Below are positions 2,111 through 17,002 of a DNA stretch of 37,523 nucleotides, one piece after another (position 1 is the first letter of the stretch; each line of letters begins with the position of its first letter). Origin of the DNA: Chloroflexota bacterium (lineage in GTDB: Bacteria > Chloroflexota > Anaerolineae > DTLA01). The stretch covers positions 1 to 37,523 of the forward strand of contig JADBJK010000026.1 in assembly GCA_014874485.1 (NCBI GenBank). The letters are read 5' to 3'. Under the pieces are notes generated by a model that worked only from the letters and a program-made list of their open reading frames with translations, was not told the DNA's origin and made no database searches. Both the position numbers and the translations under genes were made by a program.

Positions 2111-3478
2111 ATGAAACGCTCCTGGCGCGCACTCCTCGTCAACCCGTGGATTTACGACTTCGCGGCGTACAACCTGTGGAGCGAGCCGACGGGCCTGCTG
2201 GAAATCGGCGCGTACCTGCTGGGCCTGGGCTACGAGGTGTCGCTGCTAGATTGCCTGGACCGCCGACACCCGGACCTCGCCGTGTACCGAATCCGCGAGG
2301 ATTCCTTCGGTTGCGGGCATTTCCTGAAGACTCCCGTCCCGAAGCCCGATTGCGTGCGCCATGTCCCGCGCCGCTTTGGGCGCTACGGCCTGCCCCTGGA
2401 GACCGTCCAGCGCCAACTGTCCACCACGCCAAGGCCCGACATCGTTCTGGTTACGTCCGGCATGACCTACTGGTACCCGGGCGTTCACTTCGCCATCGCG
2501 CTGCTGCGACAGACATTCCCGCGCGCTCCTGTCGTCCTGGGCGGCATCTACGCCACGCTGTGCGCCGAGCACGCACAGCAGCATTCGGGCGCGGATTTCG
2601 TGCTCCCCGGCGACTGGAAGGCCACGCTGCCCGCGCTGCTGCACGACCTGGGCCTGTACCCACCCGACGCGCCTGACCCCGTGCACGTGCCGCGCTATCC
2701 GGCCCACGGCCTTCGGCGCAACCAGGGCTTCGCCGCCATCGCCACGTCCCGCGGGTGCCCCTACCGCTGCACCTACTGCGCGTCGCGCCTGCTGAACCCG
2801 GGTGGCTACGTCCCGCGCCCTGTGAACGACGTGGTGGCGGAGATTGCCCACATCGCACAGGACTTGGGCATCCCCGACATCGCCTTCTACGACGACGCGC
2901 TGCTGGTGCATTCGGCGGAGCACCTGGAGCGCATCCTGGACAGGGTGGCGGAGCGAGGCATCCGCTGTCGGTTCCACACGCCCAACGGCATCCACGCGCG
3001 GGGGATGACCGAGGCGCTGGCGTACAAGATGAGGCGCGCGGGGTTTCAGACCATCCGCATCGGCCTGGAGACCATCTCCGATGCCACGCTGCAGGCCACA
3101 GGGGCCAAGACCAGCGCCGAGGAGTTCGCCCAGGCCGTCGCGTGCCTCAAGCGGGCTGGGTTCACGGGCGGGCAGGTCGGCGCGTACATCCTGGCGGGGC
3201 TAATCGGGCAGACGCCGCGCGAGGTGCTGGACACCATCGCCTTCGTGCATTCGCTGGGGATAACGGCGCACGTGTCGCGGTTCGCGCCAATACAGGGCAC
3301 GGTGGAGTGGGAGCGGTGGGTGCGCGCGGGCCTCATCGCCGCGGATGCCGACCCGCTGCTGCAGAACCACGTGCTGCCGTTCCCGCCCGGCGCCCCGCTG
3401 ACCGAGGCCGAGTACCAGGCGGCGGTGCTGGCAGCGCGACAGGGGAACGCGAGGGTGAGGAAAGCAGCGACGGGGTGA
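2111..3478 (+). CDS. B12-binding-domain radical SAM protein
   Basis: The 455-residue product has an N-terminal cobalamin-binding-like Rossmann domain (residues 1 to about 190, beginning RALLVNPWIYDFAAYN and including a VVLGGIYATL segment) and a radical SAM core. The [4Fe-4S] cluster motif is C216-x3-C220-x2-C223 (CPYRCTYC). Later segments DIAFYDDALLV, RCRFHTPNGIHA and TIRIGLETIS are typical of the Elp3/MiaB-type radical SAM barrel of this group. I chose the ATG at 2111, 22 bases after the M23 gene, because upstream residues in the same frame only shadow that gene. This subfamily includes methyltransferases and ring-modifying enzymes, but nothing here identifies the substrate. The frame ends with a basic RKAATG tail. 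Confidence 0.88.
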   Translation: MKRSWRALLVNPWIYDFAAYNLWSEPTGLLEIGAYLLGLGYEVSLLDCLDRRHPDLAVYRIREDSFGCGHFLKTPVPKPDCVRHVPRRFGRYGLPLETVQRQLSTTPRPDIVLVTSGMTYWYPGVHFAIALLRQTFPRAPVVLGGIYATLCAEHAQQHSGADFVLPGDWKATLPALLHDLGLYPPDAPDPVHVPRYPAHGLRRNQGFAAIATSRGCPYRCTYCASRLLNPGGYVPRPVNDVVAEIAHIAQDLGIPDIAFYDDALLVHSAEHLERILDRVAERGIRCRFHTPNGIHARGMTEALAYKMRRAGFQTIRIGLETISDATLQATGAKTSAEEFAQAVACLKRAGFTGGQVGAYILAGLIGQTPREVLDTIAFVHSLGITAHVSRFAPIQGTVEWERWVRAGLIAADADPLLQNHVLPFPPGAPLTEAEYQAAVLAARQGNARVRKAATG

Positions 3479-3489
3479 GGATCGTTCGG

Positions 3490-3717
3490 CTAGGGGTTCG
3501 CCGTCAGCAGAACCCGCTCCGCCGCTTCGGGCAACTCAATGGGCACGAACATCGCCGCCGGATAGAGGTAACCATCGGGCTCGGACTTATCCTCGTCAAT
3601 GATCCGAACCATATCATGCGCCTCTGCGTCGGGATCAGGCAGCCTGCGGTAAACCTTGCCCACGATCAGGCTCGCAGGATAACCCGCGTTGTTGATACAG
3701 AGCACGAATTTGGTCAT
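3490..3717 (-). CDS. Conserved small hypothetical protein, 75 aa
   Basis: The product begins MTKFVLCINNAGYPASLIVG and continues with KVYRRLPDPDAE, an acidic stretch, YLYPAAMFVPIELP and a short helical tail. I recognise this layout as a small conserved protein seen in several bacterial groups, annotated only as hypothetical; a beta-rich, SH3-like fold would fit. I use the ATG at 3717 because family members start there and the upstream extension looks random; an AGAGG site lies about 8 bases upstream. It is separated from the lipoprotein gene by 199 bases and may be monocistronic. Function unknown. Confidence 0.75.
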   Translation of the reverse strand: MTKFVLCINNAGYPASLIVGKVYRRLPDPDAEAHDMVRIIDEDKSEPDGYLYPAAMFVPIELPEAAERVLLTANP

Positions 3718-3916
3718 CCGAGCAACCTCTTGATCTTGAACTCCTTTCGCCCGGTGTCCTAACACGCACCCCTTCGGACACACCGCGTCGCCCATCGCCA
3801 CGCTGGGCCACGCTCACTTCCTTCTCCCCGTCGCTCCACCTCGGACCACAAGTATACCCCAACCCATGGCGGGGTCAATTGTGGGCATTGGGCTACGCGC
3901 CTGCAACGGGAGGGAA

Positions 3917-4618
3917 TCAATACATCGCCCACGTCATGTCGGCGAAGAACAGCGCGAAGGCGACCTCCCGATCCCACAGCAGCGTTCCCCGCTCGCAGTC
4001 CTGGGCGATGCCCTCAAACCCGCGGATGGGACACGGCTCCGACGCATCGGCGCTCACGCACCAGCCCAGGCGTTCGCGCACGCTCCCCACCTCGCGCCAG
4101 AGTTTTCCGAACGGGCCGGTCGGTTCGGCCACCGGCAGCCCCACTGCCCGCGTGGGCGTGGGCAGCGGCGCGGGAGTGGCCTCGCCCGCAACGTAGGTGT
4201 CGGCGTACACCTCCAGTCGTGGCTCGCCGGAGTAGTACAGCACATACAGCACGCGCAGGTCGCCCCGCCAGATCATCAAGCCCGACTGGAACGAGCACTC
4301 CTGCCCTGGAAACGCCACCTGCGGCCCCACCGCGCACCCCACCGAGTCCTTGACCAGATTCCACACATCGCCCAGGCCCCACTGGGGGGTTGACTGGCAC
4401 TGCACGGGCGAGGGCGTGAAGCCGGGCATCGGCGTCATCAGAGGGCTGCGGGTGTAGAAGGGCGTAGGCGTCGGCGGGACGCGGGTAGGGGTTGCCGTCG
4501 GCCTGGGGGTAGGCGTGGGCGATGGCGTGGGTGTCGGCTTCGCCCCGCATGCCGACGCAATGACGACCAACGCGAGAGCGAGCAGGATTGTGGTGGCAGC
4601 AGCGGTGCGCGTTCTCAA
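3917..4618 (-). CDS. Lipoprotein with P/T-rich linker and two W-x-G-type repeats
   Basis: I start this 233-residue protein at TTG 4618, 4 bases after the glycosyltransferase stop, because a perfect GGGAGG site lies just upstream and a signal peptide follows immediately. The lipobox is IASAC with C24 as the lipidated residue. Residues about 27-60 are a Pro/Thr repeat linker common in Chloroflexota surface proteins. The rest contains two copies of a repeat: a tryptophan near LVKDSVGCAVGP leading to FQSGLMIWRGD, and WREVGSVRERLGWC leading to CERGTLLWDRE. These resemble LGFP-like cell-surface repeats, but I cannot assign a family with certainty. The frame stays open far into the glycosyltransferase gene (to 5212), which is incidental. 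Probably co-transcribed with the glycosyltransferase; role unknown. Confidence 0.82.
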   Translation of the reverse strand: MRTRTAAATTILLALALVVIASACGAKPTPTPSPTPTPRPTATPTRVPPTPTPFYTRSPLMTPMPGFTPSPVQCQSTPQWGLGDVWNLVKDSVGCAVGPQVAFPGQECSFQSGLMIWRGDLRVLYVLYYSGEPRLEVYADTYVAGEATPAPLPTPTRAVGLPVAEPTGPFGKLWREVGSVRERLGWCVSADASEPCPIRGFEGIAQDCERGTLLWDREVAFALFFADMTWAMY

Positions 4619-7731: not shown

Positions 7732-8241
7732 CTCTCCGCCAGAATGCGGGGGCGCACGCTGGCCGCGGTTGCCACCGCAGAGAACACGGAGATCGCAGAG
7801 GTTTATCTTGAACTCTCTGCGCCCTCTGTGCTCTCTGCGGTCAATCCAATAGGGCGGCTTCCCATAGCCGCCAACGGCAGGCGACAGGCACGGACACCTG
7901 CCCTACCGACCGCGGCACGCGGTGGCGATCCCACGTCCGCGCCAGGGCTGTGTCAGTCATCTGTCAGTCGCATGGGGTAAAATGACAACAACAAGAGATA
8001 GACCCGCCGGCCATGCCGCCGCAGCCGCGACGCCCAGCGCGGACACGCCACACGCGGCCGCTGGCCCCATCGGCAACTCACTTCTGCACCGAGCGGCGCG
8101 GCTGGGCGCACGGCTGGAACGCGCGGGGACGGAGATTCCGGGCTGCGTTCACAACTCCGCTCCGGCCTAGCCATCGCCGCAACCACGCGCACGCCCGCGA
8201 ACCCCGTCCTCGCCGGGACACAACCAGTAAGGAGGATGAGA
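7732..8241. other. Intergenic region before the LRR gene
   Basis: This 510-base region contains the hairpin repeat at 7774-7841. Further right, two direct copies of TGTCAGTC (7951-7958 and 7962-7969) stand in front of a -10-like TAAAAT (7978-7983); no good -35 box is present, so the promoter of the LRR gene is uncertain, and the repeats could be an operator. A short frame starting at 8013 overlaps the LRR start and looks random. The ribosome site AAGGAGG at 8229-8235 serves the LRR gene. Confidence 0.6.
7774..7841. repeat. Imperfect inverted repeat, ACCGCAGAGA family
   Basis: The left arm starting ACCGCAGAGAACACGGAG at 7774 pairs with the right arm ending CTCTGTGCTCTCTGCGGT at 7841 over about 27 bases with four mismatches, enclosing a short AT-rich loop (7801-7812). 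It is non-coding. From general knowledge, closely similar ACCGCAGAG...CTCTGCGGT palindromes occur scattered through unrelated bacterial genomes as short repeats without their own transposase. Confidence 0.75.
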
Positions 8242-10266
8242 ATGAAGGCCAAGACTCTCACCCGATTGCTTGTTGTCCTTATGCTGGCCAGCACGCTGCT
8301 GCTGGACGGCGCAAGCGTCCGCTCGGATCCCATGCAGTCAGGTTCTGCCATCGTGTTCCAGGCCAGCCAGTTGGATGAGGTTGCCGTGGCGGCTGTGAAC
8401 TGCGACGACGAACGGCGTAGCGGAATCCCGTCGAGCCAGTGCTACGCCCTGATCAACTTCTACAACAACGCCGGAGGGCCAGGCTGGAAGAATCAACGCA
8501 ATTGGCTGACGGACCCCATGCCCTGCGTCTGGTGGGGTGTTAATTGCGAGTGCAATCCGGAAGCAGAGCCGCCATACTGTCAAGTTAAGTGCCTAGATCT
8601 GTGGGATAATAACGTAACTGCGATTCCTCCCGCCGTTACTGCCCTGACCTACTTGCAGCACCTTCACTTAAGCCACAATGGCATCGGAGGGGCGGTGCCG
8701 GGTTACCTGGGCAGCCTGCAGAATCTCACTCTACTAAGCCTCGGCGACAACAACTTCACCTCGGTCGAACCGGGGGTTGGCGGTCTATCCCACCTGCAGT
8801 TCCTGGACCTTGTAGACAACCATCTTAGTTCGCTCCCGGAGTCTCTGAGCGGCTTGAAGTCGCTGGAAACGCTGCTGCTTTGGGGCAACTCGTTCACCTC
8901 CATGCCATCCGCCATTGCGGGGATGTCCAACCTGCGGCAACTTTTGATGGAGGACAACCAGCTGACGGGCGAACTCCCTGCCTGGATCGGCAACCTGGCC
9001 AACTTGGAAGAACTGGGTTTGGCGATCAACCATATCACCTCAGTTCCACCTGAAATCGGCAAACTGGACAACCTCCAACTGCTCCTACTGCAGAGAAATG
9101 ACATTACCGCGCTTCCCCCCGAGATCGGCGACCTGGCCAAATTGGAGCATCTGTCCCTTTGGGAAAACCGACTCGGGGCGATTCCGCCCGAGATCGGGAA
9201 CCTGACGAACCTCAAGGAACTTGACATGTCCTCAAACCACGTACTTGCGGGCACTATCCCATCCAGCCTGGGCAACCTTCGGAGTTTGGAGTACTTGTAC
9301 TTGCAGGAGAACGCGCTGCAAGGGCAGATTCCTCCATCGTTGGGTAATCTCGCGGAACTGAAGTGTCTCAATCTGGGATCTAATCAGTTGACCGGCCCCA
9401 TCCCCACAAGCCTTGGACAGTTGGCCAATCTGGAATTCCTCCACCTCTACGATAACCAGTTGACAGGGAGTATCCCTAGCACGCTGGGCTGGCTCAGCAA
9501 GTTGAAGGTGCTAAACCTGGCGAACAATCGGCTGACAGGCCCCCTGCCGGCCCAACTCGGCTACCTGCCCAACCTGAGAAAACTCATCGTGAGCGGGAAC
9601 AGGGGCCTGTACGGGCCTCTCCCGATTGGGTTGCTCCGGTCTTCGGAACCGCGCTACATCAGTTTCTACGGCACGCAGATATGCGAGCCAACGGACGCGG
9701 AGTTCCAAAACCTGCTATGGAGCGACAGGATGGCCGGCTGGACCATCCTCTCCTCCGGCTTGGCGTGTGAGGCTCCGCCTACCTTGGCGCCGGTAGGGCC
9801 CGCCGGTGGCACACTGTCCTCTGCTGCAGACGGCACCACCTACACCTTCGCACCCGGGACATTCGGCCCGTCCGCCGAAGTCGCCATCGCCTCGGCGGGC
9901 GTCGTTACGGTTACACACGCGCCCAAAGCAGCCGGCGCGGCGCCGTCCACCGGCAACCTGGTGGGCATCCGCCACTTCTACGACGTCTACGCCCGCGACG
10001 CCACCGGCCAGTACGTGCAGCCGGTCAAACCGTACACGATTACCATCCAATACGGCCCCCTGGACATTGCGGCCGGCCACGCGATAGAGAGCACGCTCGC
10101 GCTCTACCGATGGAACGGCACATCGTGGGTCAAGGAGCCGACGAGCCGCGTGAACGTCATCTCGGACACCATCACGGCAAACCCCAGCCGCTTCTCCACC
10201 TGGGCTGTGCTGGGCGAAAAGGCTCCGGCGAGGAGGCGGCTGCCCATGGTGATGAAGGGCGAGTGA
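8242..10266 (+). CDS. Secreted leucine-rich-repeat protein with plant-type N-cap and ZU5-like C-terminal domain
   Basis: The 674-residue product is exported and probably binds ligands or mediates contacts at the cell surface. Residues 1-29 form a signal peptide. An N-cap (about 54-116) with six or more Cys, including PCVWWGVNC, resembles the cap of plant LRR receptors. Fifteen LRR units follow (about 117-465), switching from 23-residue units (SLPESLSGLKS) to 24-residue plant-type units (NQLTGPIPTSLGQLAN). Next come GGTLSSAADGTTYTF (ZU5-like) and a beta-rich region ending RRRLPMVMKGE. I chose the ATG at 8242, not 8236, because GGAGG ends at 8235. Codon use in the LRR part is less GC-rich than in neighbouring genes, suggesting transfer. 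It stands alone between minus-strand genes. Confidence 0.88.
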   Translation: MKAKTLTRLLVVLMLASTLLLDGASVRSDPMQSGSAIVFQASQLDEVAVAAVNCDDERRSGIPSSQCYALINFYNNAGGPGWKNQRNWLTDPMPCVWWGVNCECNPEAEPPYCQVKCLDLWDNNVTAIPPAVTALTYLQHLHLSHNGIGGAVPGYLGSLQNLTLLSLGDNNFTSVEPGVGGLSHLQFLDLVDNHLSSLPESLSGLKSLETLLLWGNSFTSMPSAIAGMSNLRQLLMEDNQLTGELPAWIGNLANLEELGLAINHITSVPPEIGKLDNLQLLLLQRNDITALPPEIGDLAKLEHLSLWENRLGAIPPEIGNLTNLKELDMSSNHVLAGTIPSSLGNLRSLEYLYLQENALQGQIPPSLGNLAELKCLNLGSNQLTGPIPTSLGQLANLEFLHLYDNQLTGSIPSTLGWLSKLKVLNLANNRLTGPLPAQLGYLPNLRKLIVSGNRGLYGPLPIGLLRSSEPRYISFYGTQICEPTDAEFQNLLWSDRMAGWTILSSGLACEAPPTLAPVGPAGGTLSSAADGTTYTFAPGTFGPSAEVAIASAGVVTVTHAPKAAGAAPSTGNLVGIRHFYDVYARDATGQYVQPVKPYTITIQYGPLDIAAGHAIESTLALYRWNGTSWVKEPTSRVNVISDTITANPSRFSTWAVLGEKAPARRRLPMVMKGE

Positions 10267-10308: not shown

Positions 10309-12843
10309 TTACGCCCGCAGCCGGAGCATCTCCTGCACCAGCAGGAGCGTCTGCGCCTTCGTCTGGGCTTCGGGGTCCTCCACCGGCCCCACGCACGAGG
10401 GGCAGCCGTCCGCACACGGGCAGGCGACGATGAGTTCCTCCGCCGCTTGGAGCAGGTGCCAGTGCAGTTCGTAGAGCCGTTCGGCGAAGCCAACGCCACC
10501 GGGGATGTCATCGTACAGGTAGATGGTGGGCATGCGCGTTCCGGGCGCCCGCACCGACGCGCTCACGCCCAAGTCCTGGGGCGAGGCCATGAGGAACAGC
10601 GGGGCCAGGTGAACCAGGACGTGCGCCAGGCCGTGCAGGCCGCTCTCCGCCGCCTTGGACGTCTCAATCCGCGTGTGGCACGTGTGGCACACGGTGATGA
10701 GGTTGCCCAGGTCGTTGGCCTGGCGGTAGCGCTCGTTCTCGCCGGGCACGTAGCCGAACTCGCGGAACGGCACGAGGTGGTGCACGTCGTGCTGGCGGCC
10801 GGGCCTCTCCGGAGCGCCGCACAGGCGACACCGGTAGCCGTCGCGCTGGCGGGCGAGTTCGCGCTGGGCCTCCCAGTTGGGGCCATAGTCGGCGATGGGT
10901 TCCAAATCCCACGCACCCGCCGCCCGCAGGGTGGCTGCCACGGCATCGGGCACCGTCAGCCAGTAGGCTGTGGTCTCCATGCTCTGCTCGGGCAGGTTCA
11001 CGTCGCCCCAGCCCAGCGTCTCGTGGGTGTACATCTTGACCTTGCGGAAGCCGGTAACGCGGCGTGTAACCTGCACGTCGCCCCATGCGCGGCCCCCGGG
11101 CGCGTCCTCCTGGGCGACGCGCAGGACGGCCACGTCGCTGGCGCTCATGGCCTCGGTGTAGTAGTCCACCTGTACCGGCTGCACCACAGCCCGCCCCTCG
11201 TCCCAGCCGACGCTCTCCACCAGGTACTGCCGTCCTTCGTGCATGTAGATGGCCCCCGGATACAGGAACTTGGGCGCGGACGCCCGATCCACCACGCCGA
11301 TGGCGCGGGGCCGGCCCTCGTCGTCCGCCGACTCCACCGTGAAGGCGTCGGCGTCGGCCACGCGCAGCGACAGCCCGTCCGCCGGATACGCTTCGCTCAT
11401 CCAGTACCACGTGCCTGCGGCGTGGCGGAGCACCCCTTCCTGCTCCAGGCGTGCCAGGATTTCCGGCGTGGCCTCGGCAGCGCCCAGATTCTCGCCGTCG
11501 CGGAAGGGCAGTTCAAACGCGGCGCAGCGGACGTGGCTCTCCAGGATGCGCGGGTTGTCGGGGTGAATCAGCGCGTGCTCTGGCGAGCGCCCGAAGAAGT
11601 AGTCGGGGTGGCGCACGATGTACTGATCCAGCGGGTCGGCGCTGGCGACGAGCACGGCCACCGACGCGCCCCTGCGCCGTCCGGCGCGGCCCGCCTGCTG
11701 CCAGGTGCTGGCGATGGTGCCCGGATAGCCCGCCATGACGCAGGCGTCCAGGTTGCCGATGTCAATGCCCAGTTCCAGCGCGTTGGTGGAGACGACCGCC
11801 CGCGCCGAACCGTCCCGCAGCGCCTTCTCAATCTGCCGCCGCTCGGTGGGGAGATACCCGCCGCGGTAGCCGTGGACGGCGTCGGGGTTGAGGTCGCGCT
11901 TGCGGAGCGTGTCCCGCAGGTACGTGAGCAGCACCTCCGCCGACTGGCGCGAGCGCGCGAAGACGATGGTCTGCACGTCCGCCTCCACCGCCCGCGCGGC
12001 GAGAGACAGCGCCTCCAACAGCGCGCCGCGCCGCAAGCCCGTCTGCGCGTCCAGCAGCGGCGGGTTGTAGAAGACCAGGTGCTTCTCCCCCTTCGGCGAG
12101 CCGTCCTCGTCAATGAGGGCGATGTCCTCCTCCACCAGTCGCGTCGCCAGTTCCAGCGGGTTGCCGATGGTCGCCGAACAGCAGATGAACTCCGGCGCTG
12201 CACCGTAGAACGCGCACACCCGCTTCAGCCGCCGCAGGACGTTCGCCACATGGCTGCCAGACACGCCGCGGTAGGTGTGAACCTCGTCCAGCACGACGAA
12301 GCGCAGGTTCTGGAAGAACCCCATCCAGTTGGTGTGATGGGGGAGAATGCCCTGGTGGAGCATGTCGGGGTTGGTGATGACGACGCGCGCCGTGCGGCGG
12401 ATGCTGCTGCGCGCGCTCGTGGGCGTATCGCCGTCGTACACGGCAGGGCCGACGGCTGCCGACAGCCGCGACGCCAGGTCGTTCAGTTCGGCCAGTTGGT
12501 CCTGCGACAGGGCTTTGGTCGGGAACAGGTACAGCGCACGGGCGCGGGGGTCCCGCAGCAAAGCGTCCAGCACCGGCAGGTTGTAGCACAGCGTCTTGCC
12601 CGAAGCGGTGGGCGTAACGACGGCGACGTGGCGGCCCTGTTTCACCGCCTGCCAGGCAAGCGCCTGGTGGCTGTACAGGCTGCGGATGCCCTTCGCTTGC
12701 AGCGCGGCGGCCAACTCCGGGTGGCACTCGGGCGGGAGCGGCGCAAGGCGCGCGGCGCACGGCTCCTGCCGCTGCCACGCCGTGATGTTCCGCGCGAAGT
12801 GCGGCGCGCGCTCCAGTTCCTCCAGCAGCGCCACGATGCTCAT
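10309..12843 (-). CDS. MrfA/YprA-like DEAD/DEAH helicase with DUF1998 and an embedded HNH motif
   Basis: This 844-residue superfamily 2 helicase probably works in DNA repair. Helicase motifs are TPTASGKTL (I), FPTKALSQDQ (Ia), VVLDEVHTYRG (II), CSATIGNP (III), VSTNALELGIDIGNLDACV and QQAGRAGRR (VI). The C-terminal part has DUF1998 marks: GLHGLAHVLVHLAPLFLM, YLYDDIPGGVGFAERL and a zinc knuckle CPCADGCPSC. This domain order is that of MrfA, a mitomycin-repair helicase of Bacillus. Unusually, residues about 665-725 (near 10670-10850) form an HNH-like block: RDGYRCRLCG, DVHHLVPF, then NLITVCHTCHTRIE. The start ATG follows GAGGGG, which overlaps the stop of the preceding gene. Helicase assignment is firm; nuclease activity of the HNH block is inferred. 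Confidence 0.9.
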   Translation of the reverse strand: MSIVALLEELERAPHFARNITAWQRQEPCAARLAPLPPECHPELAAALQAKGIRSLYSHQALAWQAVKQGRHVAVVTPTASGKTLCYNLPVLDALLRDPRARALYLFPTKALSQDQLAELNDLASRLSAAVGPAVYDGDTPTSARSSIRRTARVVITNPDMLHQGILPHHTNWMGFFQNLRFVVLDEVHTYRGVSGSHVANVLRRLKRVCAFYGAAPEFICCSATIGNPLELATRLVEEDIALIDEDGSPKGEKHLVFYNPPLLDAQTGLRRGALLEALSLAARAVEADVQTIVFARSRQSAEVLLTYLRDTLRKRDLNPDAVHGYRGGYLPTERRQIEKALRDGSARAVVSTNALELGIDIGNLDACVMAGYPGTIASTWQQAGRAGRRRGASVAVLVASADPLDQYIVRHPDYFFGRSPEHALIHPDNPRILESHVRCAAFELPFRDGENLGAAEATPEILARLEQEGVLRHAAGTWYWMSEAYPADGLSLRVADADAFTVESADDEGRPRAIGVVDRASAPKFLYPGAIYMHEGRQYLVESVGWDEGRAVVQPVQVDYYTEAMSASDVAVLRVAQEDAPGGRAWGDVQVTRRVTGFRKVKMYTHETLGWGDVNLPEQSMETTAYWLTVPDAVAATLRAAGAWDLEPIADYGPNWEAQRELARQRDGYRCRLCGAPERPGRQHDVHHLVPFREFGYVPGENERYRQANDLGNLITVCHTCHTRIETSKAAESGLHGLAHVLVHLAPLFLMASPQDLGVSASVRAPGTRMPTIYLYDDIPGGVGFAERLYELHWHLLQAAEELIVACPCADGCPSCVGPVEDPEAQTKAQTLLLVQEMLRLRA

Positions 12844-12852
12844 GGATTCCCC

Positions 12853-13578
12853 TCACTTCCGGGGCGTCATCTTCCCCACGACGAGGTTGAGCAGGAACGC
12901 CCGCTCGGAGCCGTCGTCAAACTGCACCTTGACCGTGCCGCCCGACGAGTCCTCGCGCACGTCCACCACGCGGCCCGCGCCGAACCGCTCGTGCTCCACC
13001 CGCATCCCCACGGCGAACGGGTTGTCCACCTTGCCCTGGGGTGCGGTGGCCGCGGGTTCGTCCCGCCGCATGTACTGGCGGTCTTCCCACAGTTGGGCAT
13101 ACAGCGTCAGGTCATCGTGCGAGCGCACGCGGGGCGCGAGGCGGTCGCACACCTGCCGGGCCTTCGCCAGGCGCTGCGTCAGGTCGGCCTTGACCCGCTG
13201 GGGACGGTCGCTCTGGGCCAGCAACCGGGCCGAGCGGCTCAACGCCGTGCGAATCTCCTCCAGCACCTTGCGGGGTTCGCCCTCGTACAGGTCTATGGTG
13301 ATGAGGTAGACGCCCGCCTGCTGGCACAGCGACTCGCGGATGGCGTCGCGGTGGGCCTCCTCGGCCAGTTCCTGCTCCGAGACGGGAGCCTTCCGCTTTC
13401 CCGTGCTGCCCACGAAGCGGAAGGCCACGCCCGCGTCCGGATAGTACCGATCCAGTTTCAGGCGGCGACCCGTCTCCGGGTTCACCAGCCATTCAGGCGT
13501 AACGTTCTCCTGGCCCTGGAACCCCTCAAAGATGCGTTCCAGGATTTCGCGCCAGGCGTTGGATGGATTGGGAAACAA
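12853..13578 (-). CDS. Nuclease-fold-like protein with UvrD/PcrA-type C-terminal tail
   Basis: The 241-residue product has two parts. Residues about 31-100 (RLKLDRYYPDAGVAFRFVG, then HRDAIRESLCQQAGVYLITI) follow the strand-helix pattern of Vsr-like PD-(D/E)xK nucleases, with D43 in the first acidic position; the usual second acidic residue is replaced by R54, so activity is doubtful. Residues about 187-235 (FAVGMRVEHERFGAGRVV, then VKVQFDDGSERAFLL) match the Tudor-like tail by which UvrD and PcrA bind RNA polymerase. No helicase motifs are present. The TTG at 13578 is chosen because GGGAGG stands 7 bases upstream and a canonical promoter lies behind it. It is 9 bases from the helicase start, so the two form an operon. 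Confidence 0.72.
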   Translation of the reverse strand: MFPNPSNAWREILERIFEGFQGQENVTPEWLVNPETGRRLKLDRYYPDAGVAFRFVGSTGKRKAPVSEQELAEEAHRDAIRESLCQQAGVYLITIDLYEGEPRKVLEEIRTALSRSARLLAQSDRPQRVKADLTQRLAKARQVCDRLAPRVRSHDDLTLYAQLWEDRQYMRRDEPAATAPQGKVDNPFAVGMRVEHERFGAGRVVDVREDSSGGTVKVQFDDGSERAFLLNLVVGKMTPRK

Positions 13579-13632
13579 CGATGAACCTCCCGGGCGAGAT
13601 TGAGGGCCGGCGCTGCACCTGCGGCCAGCCGA

Positions 13633-13661
13633 AGTATAGTACATTTGTTTCACGTCGGCAA
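13633..13661 (-). promoter_or_regulatory. Sigma-70-type promoter for the nuclease-like/helicase operon
   Basis: On the minus strand TTGCCG (13656-13661), 17 bases, then TATACT (13633-13638). The start codon at 13578 lies about 50 bases downstream of the expected transcription start. Confidence 0.7.
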
Positions 13662-13797: not shown

Positions 13798-13867
13798 TCT
13801 TCCGAGATGCTTCGCGCCGCAAACCGCGGATCCGAATTGAAGAGCGGAACGTACTTCCCGCGTGGGC

Positions 13868-13896
13868 TTGACGTTTACAATAAGGGAGAGTATACT
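13868..13896 (+). promoter_or_regulatory. Sigma-70-type promoter for the polysaccharide gene cluster
   Basis: TTGACG (13868-13873), 17 bases, TATACT (13891-13896). The same two hexamers with the same spacing precede the tRNA cluster at 21045. The expected leader is about 30 bases and contains GGAGGAGAG before the ATG at 13934. Confidence 0.82.
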
Positions 13897-13933
13897 AGGC
13901 GCACTTTATTGCGTTCGCCTGGAGGAGAGAGCG

Positions 13934-15112
13934 ATGTCCACGCCTGCGGTGCTTGGGGGTACTCCTCTTTTTGAGTCGCCGTTGCCCTTCATGAGACCGA
14001 CGCTGCCCGAGTTCTCCGAAGTCGCAGGCGAAATCGGGGAAATCTTCCAGACCGGCATGGTAACCAAGGGCAAGTACCTGGCCGCCTTTGAGCAGGCCGT
14101 CGCCCAGCACGTGGGGACCCGGCACGCCGTTGGCGTCTCCAGTTGCACCACCGGCCTGACCCTCACCTACAAGGCCGCCGAGTTGACCGGCGAGGTCGTG
14201 GTCCCCAGTTTCACCTTCATGGCCACGGTGCACCCCCTCGTGTGGTGCGGGCTCACGCCGGTTTTCGCCGACGTGGACCCCGACACGTGGAACCTGGACC
14301 CGGACTCCGCGGCGGCGGCCATCACCCCGGCCACGTCGGCCATCGTCGCCACCCACGTGTTCGGCAATCCCGCCGACGTGGAGCGGCTGGAATCGGTGGC
14401 GCGGCGCGCGGGCGTGAAACTCCTGTTTGACGCCGCCCACGGGTTCGGCGCGCTGTACCGCGGGAAGCCGGTGGGCAGCCACGGCGAGGCCGAGGTCTTC
14501 AGTTCCAGCCCCACGAAATTGCTTGTAACCGGCGAAGGGGGCATCGTCGCCACCAACAACGCGGAAATCGCGCGGCGCGTGGAAGTGGGCCGCGAGTACG
14601 GCAACCCAGGCAACTACGACACCGAGTTCCCCGGCCTCAACGCCCGCATGCAGGAGTTCAGCGCCATTCTCGGCCTGCATTCGCTGCGGATGCTGGAAGA
14701 CAACGCCAAACGCCGAAATCACCTCGTGGACATCTACCGCCAGGGGTTGCAGGGCGTGGAAGGCATCTACTTCCAGAAGATAGACCCGCGCGACCGGTGC
14801 TCGTACAAGGACTTCTCCATCCGCGTCGTGGAATCCGAATTCGGCCTGTCGCGCGACATGCTGGTCCAGGCGTTGCGGGCCGAAGGCGTGGACACCCGCA
14901 ACTACTACGACCCGCCGGTTCACCTGCACACGGCGTATCGGCACGTGGGCGAGCGTTATCGCGGTCGGCTGCCTGTAACGGAGCGCCTTGCCAAGGAATG
15001 CGTGAGCCTGCCCATCTTCTCGCACATGGAACCCGATGCAGTGCAGCGCATCTGCGAGGCCATCCGTCGTATCCAGCGCCATAGCGCCGCCATACGCAAA
15101 GCACTGAGTTAG
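13934..15112 (+). CDS. DegT/DnrJ/EryC1-family PLP-dependent sugar aminotransferase
   Basis: The 392-residue product belongs to the DegT/DnrJ/EryC1/StrS fold-type I enzymes, which aminate keto-sugar nucleotides (or dehydrate sugars) for surface polysaccharides. The PLP-binding Lys is K195 in SSSPTKLLVTGEGG. Other family marks are GVSSCTTGLTL (about 67-77), VVVPSFTFMATVHPLVWCG, DAAHGFGALYRG and the C-terminal region with NYYDPPVH, plus LPIFSHMEPDAV. The start at 13934 follows GGAGGAGAG; an upstream extension in frame is rejected because it overlaps the promoter. It precedes the CapD-like dehydratase by 15 bases, and a dehydratase supplying a 4-keto sugar to this aminotransferase is a reasonable pathway. 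Confidence 0.92.
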   Translation: MSTPAVLGGTPLFESPLPFMRPTLPEFSEVAGEIGEIFQTGMVTKGKYLAAFEQAVAQHVGTRHAVGVSSCTTGLTLTYKAAELTGEVVVPSFTFMATVHPLVWCGLTPVFADVDPDTWNLDPDSAAAAITPATSAIVATHVFGNPADVERLESVARRAGVKLLFDAAHGFGALYRGKPVGSHGEAEVFSSSPTKLLVTGEGGIVATNNAEIARRVEVGREYGNPGNYDTEFPGLNARMQEFSAILGLHSLRMLEDNAKRRNHLVDIYRQGLQGVEGIYFQKIDPRDRCSYKDFSIRVVESEFGLSRDMLVQALRAEGVDTRNYYDPPVHLHTAYRHVGERYRGRLPVTERLAKECVSLPIFSHMEPDAVQRICEAIRRIQRHSAAIRKALS

Positions 15113-15127
15113 GACGTTTGTAGAGAG

Positions 15128-17002
15128 ATGTGGCTCAGGAATCGGTATCTGCTTGTCGCTGACCTGGTCTTGCTGCTGTTGGCGCTTCTCCTGAGTTATT
15201 TCCTGCGCTTTGACACGTTCACCGCGTGGAGTTACTTCCAGCGCTGGTGGCCAGTCGTGCCCGTCCTGCTCATCCTGTACCCGGTGGTATTCCACCTGTT
15301 CGGCCTGTACCGGCGCATGTGGCAGTACGCGGGCAGCCACGAGGCCCTGGCTATCATAGCGGCGGCGAGCATCGCATCGGCGGCGCTGGCCATCCTCATC
15401 TACGGCGTCATGCGCCCCTTGAAGATCATCTCCGGTTTCTCCCGCCCCATGCTCATCATTGACTGGTTGCTGAACATCCTCCTCCTCGGGGGCGTTCGGT
15501 TCTCGTCCAAGATCGCCTGGGACATTGCGACCGGCCGCAAGAGCAAGATCGGCCAGGGCGGCGTGCCGCGTCGCATCCTGGTCATCGGCGCAGGCGACGC
15601 GGGTGCGATGATCGTCCGCGAGATGCACAACAACCCCGAAATCAACATGCTGCCGGTGGGGTTCGTGGACGACGACGAGCGGAAAATCGGCAACTACATC
15701 CACGGCGTCAAGGTCTACGGTTCGCGCAAGGATATCCCCGAACTGGCGCGGCGGCTCCACGTGGACGAGGCGCTCATCGCCATGCCCACAGCGCCCGGCA
15801 AATCCATCCGCGAAATCGTCGGCATCTGCGAGAGCGCGGGCATCCGATTCCGCACCTTGCCCGGCCTGTTTGAACTCCTCAACGGCAAGGTGTGGCTCAG
15901 CCAAATCCGCGAGGTGCAATTGGAAGACCTGCTGCGCCGCGAACCGACCAGCGTCAACCTGGAGGAAATTGCCGGCTTCATCTCCGGGGCCACCATCCTG
16001 GTAACCGGCGCGGGCGGGTCCATCGGGTCCGAACTGTGCCGCCAGATCGCGCGGTTCCGCCCCGGCCACCTCATCCTGCTGGGCCACGGCGAGAACAGCA
16101 TCTACAACATTGAGCAGGAACTGTGCCGCAAGTTCCCGTCGCTGCCACGGGACGTGATTATCGCCGACATCCGCGACGCGAACAAGATTCACGCGATCCT
16201 GCAACGCTACCGCCCGCAGATCGTGTTCCACTCGGCAGCGCACAAGCACGTGCCGCTGATGGAACACAACGTGGACGAGGCGATCACCAACAACGTGCTG
16301 GGCACGCGAAACGTTGTCCAGGCCGCGCTGACCGCCGACGTGGAGCGGTTCGTGCTCATCTCCACGGACAAGGCCGTGCGCCCCACCAGCATCATGGGCG
16401 CGACCAAACGCATCGCCGAGATGATCGTGCAAGAAGCCGCGATGCGAAGTGGGCGCGCGTTCGTCGCCGTTCGCTTCGGCAACGTGCTGGGCAGTCGCGG
16501 CAGCGTGGTCCCGCTGTTCAAGGAGCAGATCGCCGCCGGTGGCCCCATCACCATCACCCACCCAGAGATGACCCGCTTCTTCATGACCATCCCCGAGGCC
16601 GTCCAACTCGTCATCCAGGCGGCTTCGCTGGCCACGCCGGGCCAAATCTACGCCCTGGACATGGGCGAACCGATCCGCATCGTGGATTTGGCCAAGGACC
16701 TGGTGGAACTGTCGGGGCTGAAACTGGGCCGCGACATTGAAATCGTGTACACGGGCCTGCGCCCGGGCGAGAAACTCCATGAGGAACTGTTCACCCGCGA
16801 CGAGCAGCGCACAGCCACCGTGTACGAGAAAATCTTCATCGCCCAGTCCGTGCCGGTGGACGGCGACCGCCTGTACCGGATGATTGACCTCCTGGCCGAG
16901 TACGCCGCGCAGATGGACGAGGCGGCCATCCGCAGGACGCTGCGCGAACTGGTGCCCGACTTCCAGGAAGCCGAAGTGCCCCTGCTGGAAGGCGGGTCGT
17001 AG
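15128..17002 (+). CDS. CapD/WbpM-type membrane nucleotide-sugar 4,6-dehydratase
   Basis: This 624-residue enzyme probably converts a UDP-HexNAc to its 4-keto-6-deoxy form at the membrane. Residues 1-125 contain four predicted membrane helices (LLLLALLLSYFL onwards). A CoA-binding-like Rossmann domain follows (ILVIGAGDAGAMIV, about 150-163), then the catalytic SDR domain with ILVTGAGGSIGSELCRQI (290-307), FHSAAHKHVPLME (368-379) and S412-T-D-K. In place of the usual Tyr the active site reads SIMGATK with M423 and K427, the Ser-Met-Lys arrangement known for WbpM-like enzymes. Length and domain order are typical. It starts 15 bases after the aminotransferase with AGAGAG as ribosome site and ends 11 bases before the next gene. 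Confidence 0.93.
   Translation: MWLRNRYLLVADLVLLLLALLLSYFLRFDTFTAWSYFQRWWPVVPVLLILYPVVFHLFGLYRRMWQYAGSHEALAIIAAASIASAALAILIYGVMRPLKIISGFSRPMLIIDWLLNILLLGGVRFSSKIAWDIATGRKSKIGQGGVPRRILVIGAGDAGAMIVREMHNNPEINMLPVGFVDDDERKIGNYIHGVKVYGSRKDIPELARRLHVDEALIAMPTAPGKSIREIVGICESAGIRFRTLPGLFELLNGKVWLSQIREVQLEDLLRREPTSVNLEEIAGFISGATILVTGAGGSIGSELCRQIARFRPGHLILLGHGENSIYNIEQELCRKFPSLPRDVIIADIRDANKIHAILQRYRPQIVFHSAAHKHVPLMEHNVDEAITNNVLGTRNVVQAALTADVERFVLISTDKAVRPTSIMGATKRIAEMIVQEAAMRSGRAFVAVRFGNVLGSRGSVVPLFKEQIAAGGPITITHPEMTRFFMTIPEAVQLVIQAASLATPGQIYALDMGEPIRIVDLAKDLVELSGLKLGRDIEIVYTGLRPGEKLHEELFTRDEQRTATVYEKIFIAQSVPVDGDRLYRMIDLLAEYAAQMDEAAIRRTLRELVPDFQEAEVPLLEGGS

Follow-up and report, generated by a model that had tools for sequence, protein, structure and literature searches.

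The window analysed here, a 37,523-nucleotide stretch of DNA from a Chloroflexota bacterium, encodes a protein of 241 amino acids that appears to be a so far undescribed accessory factor in transcription or DNA repair. It joins a Vsr-like nuclease fold, whose catalytic residues have been lost, to a C-terminal Tudor module of the type found on the helicases PcrA and UvrD (Table 1). On balance, we lean toward the view that it is a stand-alone, non-cleaving nucleic-acid-binding factor docked on the β subunit of RNA polymerase (RNAP) and/or on UvrB, where it would be expected to compete with PcrA. The preliminary description of this locus held that no described system of such a form was known, and in the open-licence literature we likewise found no description of a dead Vsr-like domain combined with a PcrA-type tail.

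Table 1. Positions in the window of the 241-amino-acid protein, its parts and its neighbouring elements.
Feature	Position	Strand	Basis or remark
241-amino-acid protein: inactive Vsr-like core, helical middle and PcrA/UvrD-type Tudor tail	12853..13578	-	ORF, TTG start
Vsr/EDxHD-like pseudonuclease core, residues 5-121 (K41, D43, R54, R77, R81)	13216..13566	-	Foldseek, intact-site relatives, residue counts
Two long helices (127-147, 154-173), residues 122-173, with conserved DR (D166, R167)	13060..13215	-	Model, residue counts
PcrA/UvrD-type Tudor tail, residues 188-239 (H196, F199, R226, F228 at RNAP-contact positions)	12862..13017	-	Pfam, structure, residue counts
Shine-Dalgarno box GGGAGG	13586..13591	-	7 bases 5' of TTG; sequence and conservation in the genus
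Sigma-70-like promoter TTGCCG-17-TATACT	13633..13661	-	Kept in three genomes of the genus; DNA farther upstream not kept
YprA/MrfA-type DEXH helicase with HNH insert and MZB zinc domain	10309..12843	-	Downstream; neighbour in one genus only

The TTG start codon, the GGAGG-type box 7 bases ahead of it and a promoter of the type TTGnCG-17-TATnCT were kept in both other genomes of the genus. Within the genus, the dN/dS ratio of the whole gene was 0.13 for a pair at 95% identity and 0.19 for a pair at 81%, the latter made up of 0.15 in the core, 0.13 in the tail and 0.43 in the helical middle. We therefore conclude that this is a real, constrained gene; the 241-residue reading frame, D43, R54 and the GVYLITI strand all lay where the preliminary description had placed them. 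The DR pair of the helical middle was conserved in nearly all full-length homologues (D166 in 66/68, R167 in 68/68). The promoter spacer, GTGAAACAAATGT (window 13636-13653, minus strand), was identical in the three genomes despite diverged flanks and is operator-like. A regulon built on this spacer was considered and rejected, as a genome-wide search allowing up to 3 mismatches recovered this site alone and the full box was absent upstream of relatives outside the genus. A second promoter-like site, TTGACG-17-TATACT (window 13868-13896, plus strand), faces the other way, so that the intergenic region is divergent, and it probably drives a DegT-type aminotransferase and polysaccharide genes at about 13862-17002. 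The window also encodes a tandem leucine-rich-repeat protein of 676 amino acids (8236-10266, plus strand; PF13855, PF12799), which is unusual next to glycan-synthesis genes.

A model of the core (121 residues, pLDDT 92.5) was compared with known structures using Foldseek. In the PDB it matched AbaSI (4par) and E. coli Vsr (1vsr) at probabilities of 0.98 and 0.95, though with E values of only 0.007 and 0.04, and it matched viral restriction and homing endonucleases with E values down to 4e-8 at a probability of 1.00. Eight sequence relatives of the core, found on viral contigs (L171-L176) and in two Anaerolineae proteins, had an intact E-x-D...E...H...K site with the motif E-L/I-D ... F-E-x-[QD]-G-x-x-H ... 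D-x-x-K, and were 28 to 31% identical to the core. Among the 68 full-length homologues, position 41, which is E in the active relatives, was K in 64, and position 54, also E in the active relatives, was never acidic (R in 64, H in 2, Q in 1, and K in 1). Position 81, K in the active relatives, was R in all 68, the catalytic His of the Vsr/EDxHD nucleases was not at its aligned place in this Anaerolineae family, and D43 was retained in 65 members and replaced by N in three. W9, E11, P28, W30, N33, P34, R38, L40, L42, G57, R77, R81, C85, and L92 were invariant or nearly so. Both the predicted structure and the homologues thus agree with the earlier proposal of a Vsr-like core in which an acid is replaced by R54.

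Judged by the E-x-D, E, H, and K residues on which Vsr/EDxHD catalysis depends, the nuclease site is lost family-wide while many core residues are invariant, which argues that the core has been retained for a role other than cutting. That the protein is an active nuclease brought to RNA polymerase and relying on unusual catalytic residues is exceedingly improbable: the protein does have a nuclease fold, and D43 is kept in 65 of the 68, but that residue is N in the other three, E41 and E54 are charge-reversed, no member has the second acid or the Lys, and the His is out of place. We rejected this reading on these active-site residues. The fold, the lost acids and the conserved basic residues instead suggest non-cleaving nucleic-acid binding by the core. 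There is a precedent in FASTKD4, where a Vsr-like cavity formed with the RAP domain is basic, has no nuclease activity and works by binding RNA (PMC11879112), although FASTKD4 is a mitochondrial protein with no Tudor tail and an unrelated domain context.

In fold and sequence, the core was also like the EDxHD/Vsr homing endonucleases and a phage outgroup bearing CapR/DUF723 (PMC12350094; I-Bth0305I, Vsr, AbaSI). Unlike these, the 241-amino-acid protein has no second acid, His or Lys and no CapR/DUF723 DNA-binding repeats, and it is chromosomal rather than intron-borne. The core probably descended from phage-type Vsr/EDxHD (homing-type) endonucleases, or shares a common ancestry with them; it lost the metal-binding active site and retained the fold, with a more basic pocket, and the protein carries the C-terminal PcrA/UvrD Tudor module. 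On one of the viral contigs (L173, positions 2554-4224), a single ORF combined a CapR repeat, an intact Vsr-like core and an SbcD-like phosphoesterase, which looks like the fusion of a homing-type nuclease to the beginning of a phage recombination gene.

The tail was recognized by the Pfam profile PcrA_UvrD_tudor (PF21196) at residues 190 to 222, with E = 1.8e-4 and 21.8 bits in hmmscan, below the curated cutoff of 23.9, and with 24.3 bits, just above that cutoff, in a six-frame search. The same profile matched 10 of 11 family members (best E = 4e-7), and a profile of the family itself found UvrD chains in the PDB at E = 6e-5. In the AlphaFold model (pLDDT 88.6), the best PDB match of the tail was 7egs_B, the UvrD tail on an RNAP lobe (E = 5e-4, TM score 0.87 of target, probability 1.00), and the solved PcrA/UvrD tails 7egs_B, 9dqs, and 5dma all matched at a probability of 1.00 with TM scores of 0.80 to 0.87 of target. 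The structural comparison proposed in the preliminary description thus recovered both the Vsr fold and the PcrA C-terminal fold. The RNAP-interaction domain of Mfd and CarD likewise has a Tudor-like fold and binds RNAP β. However, its profile (PF02559, CarD_TRCF_RID) matched only one of 11 members, with E = 0.27, and Mfd binds the β1 region of RNAP, which is distinct from the PcrA site; identity with that domain was rejected.

In Geobacillus stearothermophilus PcrA, H681, W684, K712, and L714 are each needed for RNAP binding, which is severely reduced by their mutation (Sanders et al., PMC5397179). The aligned residues of the 241-amino-acid protein are H196, F199, R226, and F228, so that the four RNAP-contact positions of the PcrA/UvrD Tudor domain (5DMA, 7EGS) show one identity and three conservative replacements (W to F, K to R, and L to F). 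Across the 68 full-length homologues, position 196 was H in all, position 199 was F or Y in 65 and L in three, and positions 226 and 228 were R or K and F or L, respectively, in all. R226 lies six residues past F220 without a gap, and the F-to-K spacing in the organism's own PcrA is identical. The carrier of this tail has no SF1 helicase domains, in contrast to PcrA and UvrD, and in this genome the PF21196 module is found only on PcrA and on the 241-amino-acid protein. Since the organism's own PcrA still has its tail, the protein is not a detached PcrA tail, and we rejected that origin. The same Tudor tail on a non-helicase protein is known from DinX, a Y-family polymerase of Mycobacterium tuberculosis for which a link to transcription-coupled repair has been proposed (PMC6511836); the main domain of DinX is an active DNA polymerase, whereas that of the present protein is a dead nuclease.

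The PcrA tail grips a helicase interaction motif, [VIL]-D-x-x-T-G-E-[VIL]-[VILT], on RpoB and on UvrB (Urrutia-Irazabal et al., PMC8318588). The organism's own RpoB (IVDPETGEVV) and UvrB (VDPITGEVL) both contain a strict match to this motif. From these matches and the conserved contact residues, we infer with good reason that the tail docks on RNAP β and/or UvrB. By analogy with PcrA, the tail surface would not be specific for RNAP, since the same surface of PcrA binds UvrB and the organism's own UvrB carries the motif. The protein could accordingly be imagined as a nucleotide excision repair factor, with the tail acting mainly through UvrB and the core recognizing damaged or nicked DNA. This is quite unlikely in our view; the strict motif in UvrB is consistent with it, and Vsr recognizes mismatched duplex, but RpoB has the motif too and nothing favors UvrB over RpoB.

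It is also unlikely that the protein is a PcrA competitor whose main task is to block the helicase interaction motif of RpoB or of UvrB and thereby limit PcrA/UvrD, with the core as a scaffold or regulatory part. The contact residues correspond to those of the PcrA tail, the module is limited to PcrA and this protein in the genome, RNAP and free UvrB compete for the tail of PcrA, and blocking the association of PcrA with RNAP in vivo leads to more R-loops (PMC8318588), all of which would fit such a role. However, the core is as constrained as the tail (dN/dS of 0.15 versus 0.13) and has many invariant residues, which makes a passive scaffold unlikely.

In the reading we favor, that of a docked, non-cleaving factor, the tail would grip the helicase interaction motif on RNAP β, or the same motif on UvrB, and the pseudonuclease core would bind DNA or RNA by the polymerase or lesion without cutting it. 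Such a factor would have a role in transcription or in repair, and competition with PcrA for the common site would be expected, although cooperation with PcrA is also conceivable. More tentatively, and with somewhat less confidence, we suggest that a homing-endonuclease fold without catalysis was domesticated and tethered by a PcrA-type tail to RNAP β and UvrB, giving a new kind of bacterial factor in transcription and repair. There it could sense or hold an R-loop, nascent RNA or the DNA of a lesion, and control the access of PcrA. If so, the protein would be a lineage-specific RNAP/UvrB-docking factor made from a nuclease fold of selfish elements, and the helicase interaction motif would be a hub for non-helicase proteins as well as for PcrA. 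The family would then offer a direct test case for dead Vsr-like domains, present also in Druantia helicases and mitochondrial FASTK proteins, that act by binding rather than cutting.

The protein family is stand-alone, chromosomal and lineage-restricted within Chloroflexota. With a profile built from 11 members, the protein turned up in about 100 of the 396 Anaerolineae genomes searched, in some 15 GTDB-level families, with one full-length copy in each, while the search within the phylum gave no full-length homologues in the other sampled Chloroflexota classes. Most of the other profile matches covered just the tail and lay at the C terminus of ORFs of 730 to 900 amino acids, as expected for PcrA/UvrD. 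A search of genome contigs with the single protein matched only a metagenome-assembled genome of the same genus (JARYMK010000171, Anaerolineae), and its matches in PADLOC and PHROGs were no more than weak. Cargo of a mobile element was rejected as an explanation, given that there was no phage match, no full-length plasmid match and no neighboring gene cluster common to more than four of the 15 families; the neighborhoods of the homologues gave no functional clue.

The preliminary description had paired the protein with the adjacent YprA/MrfA-type helicase and proposed an RNAP-docked adapter that delivers this helicase to stalled transcription. At the locus itself the pairing was borne out: the stop codon of the gene lies 9 bases ahead of the helicase ATG at 12843, and the two genes adjoin under one conserved promoter in all three genomes of the genus. 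Outside it, this helicase was found near the homologues at none of 65 loci from 14 other families (up to about 8 kb on each side), so that adjacency, which was to be looked for as a conserved pair, was restricted to a single genus. Furthermore, the helicase was present in 157 of 199 genomes without association with the protein (48/56 carriers and 109/143 non-carriers; Fisher p = 0.18), eight genomes had the protein and no helicase at E ≤ 1e-100, some genera had the protein without it, and the helicase sequence lacks the helicase interaction motif. The docking half of the adapter proposal is therefore well supported by the tail, whereas helicase delivery is very unlikely, and on neighborhoods, co-occurrence and the missing motif we rejected it as the general function of the family. 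The helicase is probably a local operon partner in one genus rather than a general partner or part of the core function.

Within that genus a link between the two proteins is possible, because YprA-family helicases often travel with Vsr domains; in ARMADA and Druantia such domains, active or dead, are frequently fused to the helicase (PMC12458937). A helicase of this type adjoins the gene here, as in the YprA/MrfA systems (MrfAB, ARMADA, Druantia), but the inactive Vsr-like domain resides in its own protein, which bears a Tudor tail, and the two genes do not stay together across the family. The HNH domain of the helicase (window 10666-10830, minus strand; residues 672-726) lies directly before the MZB zinc domain. 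At 50 to 60% identity, relatives covering the whole helicase were widespread in Anaerolineae, and a paralogue in the same genome (G000:C50) aligned only over residues 8 to 642.
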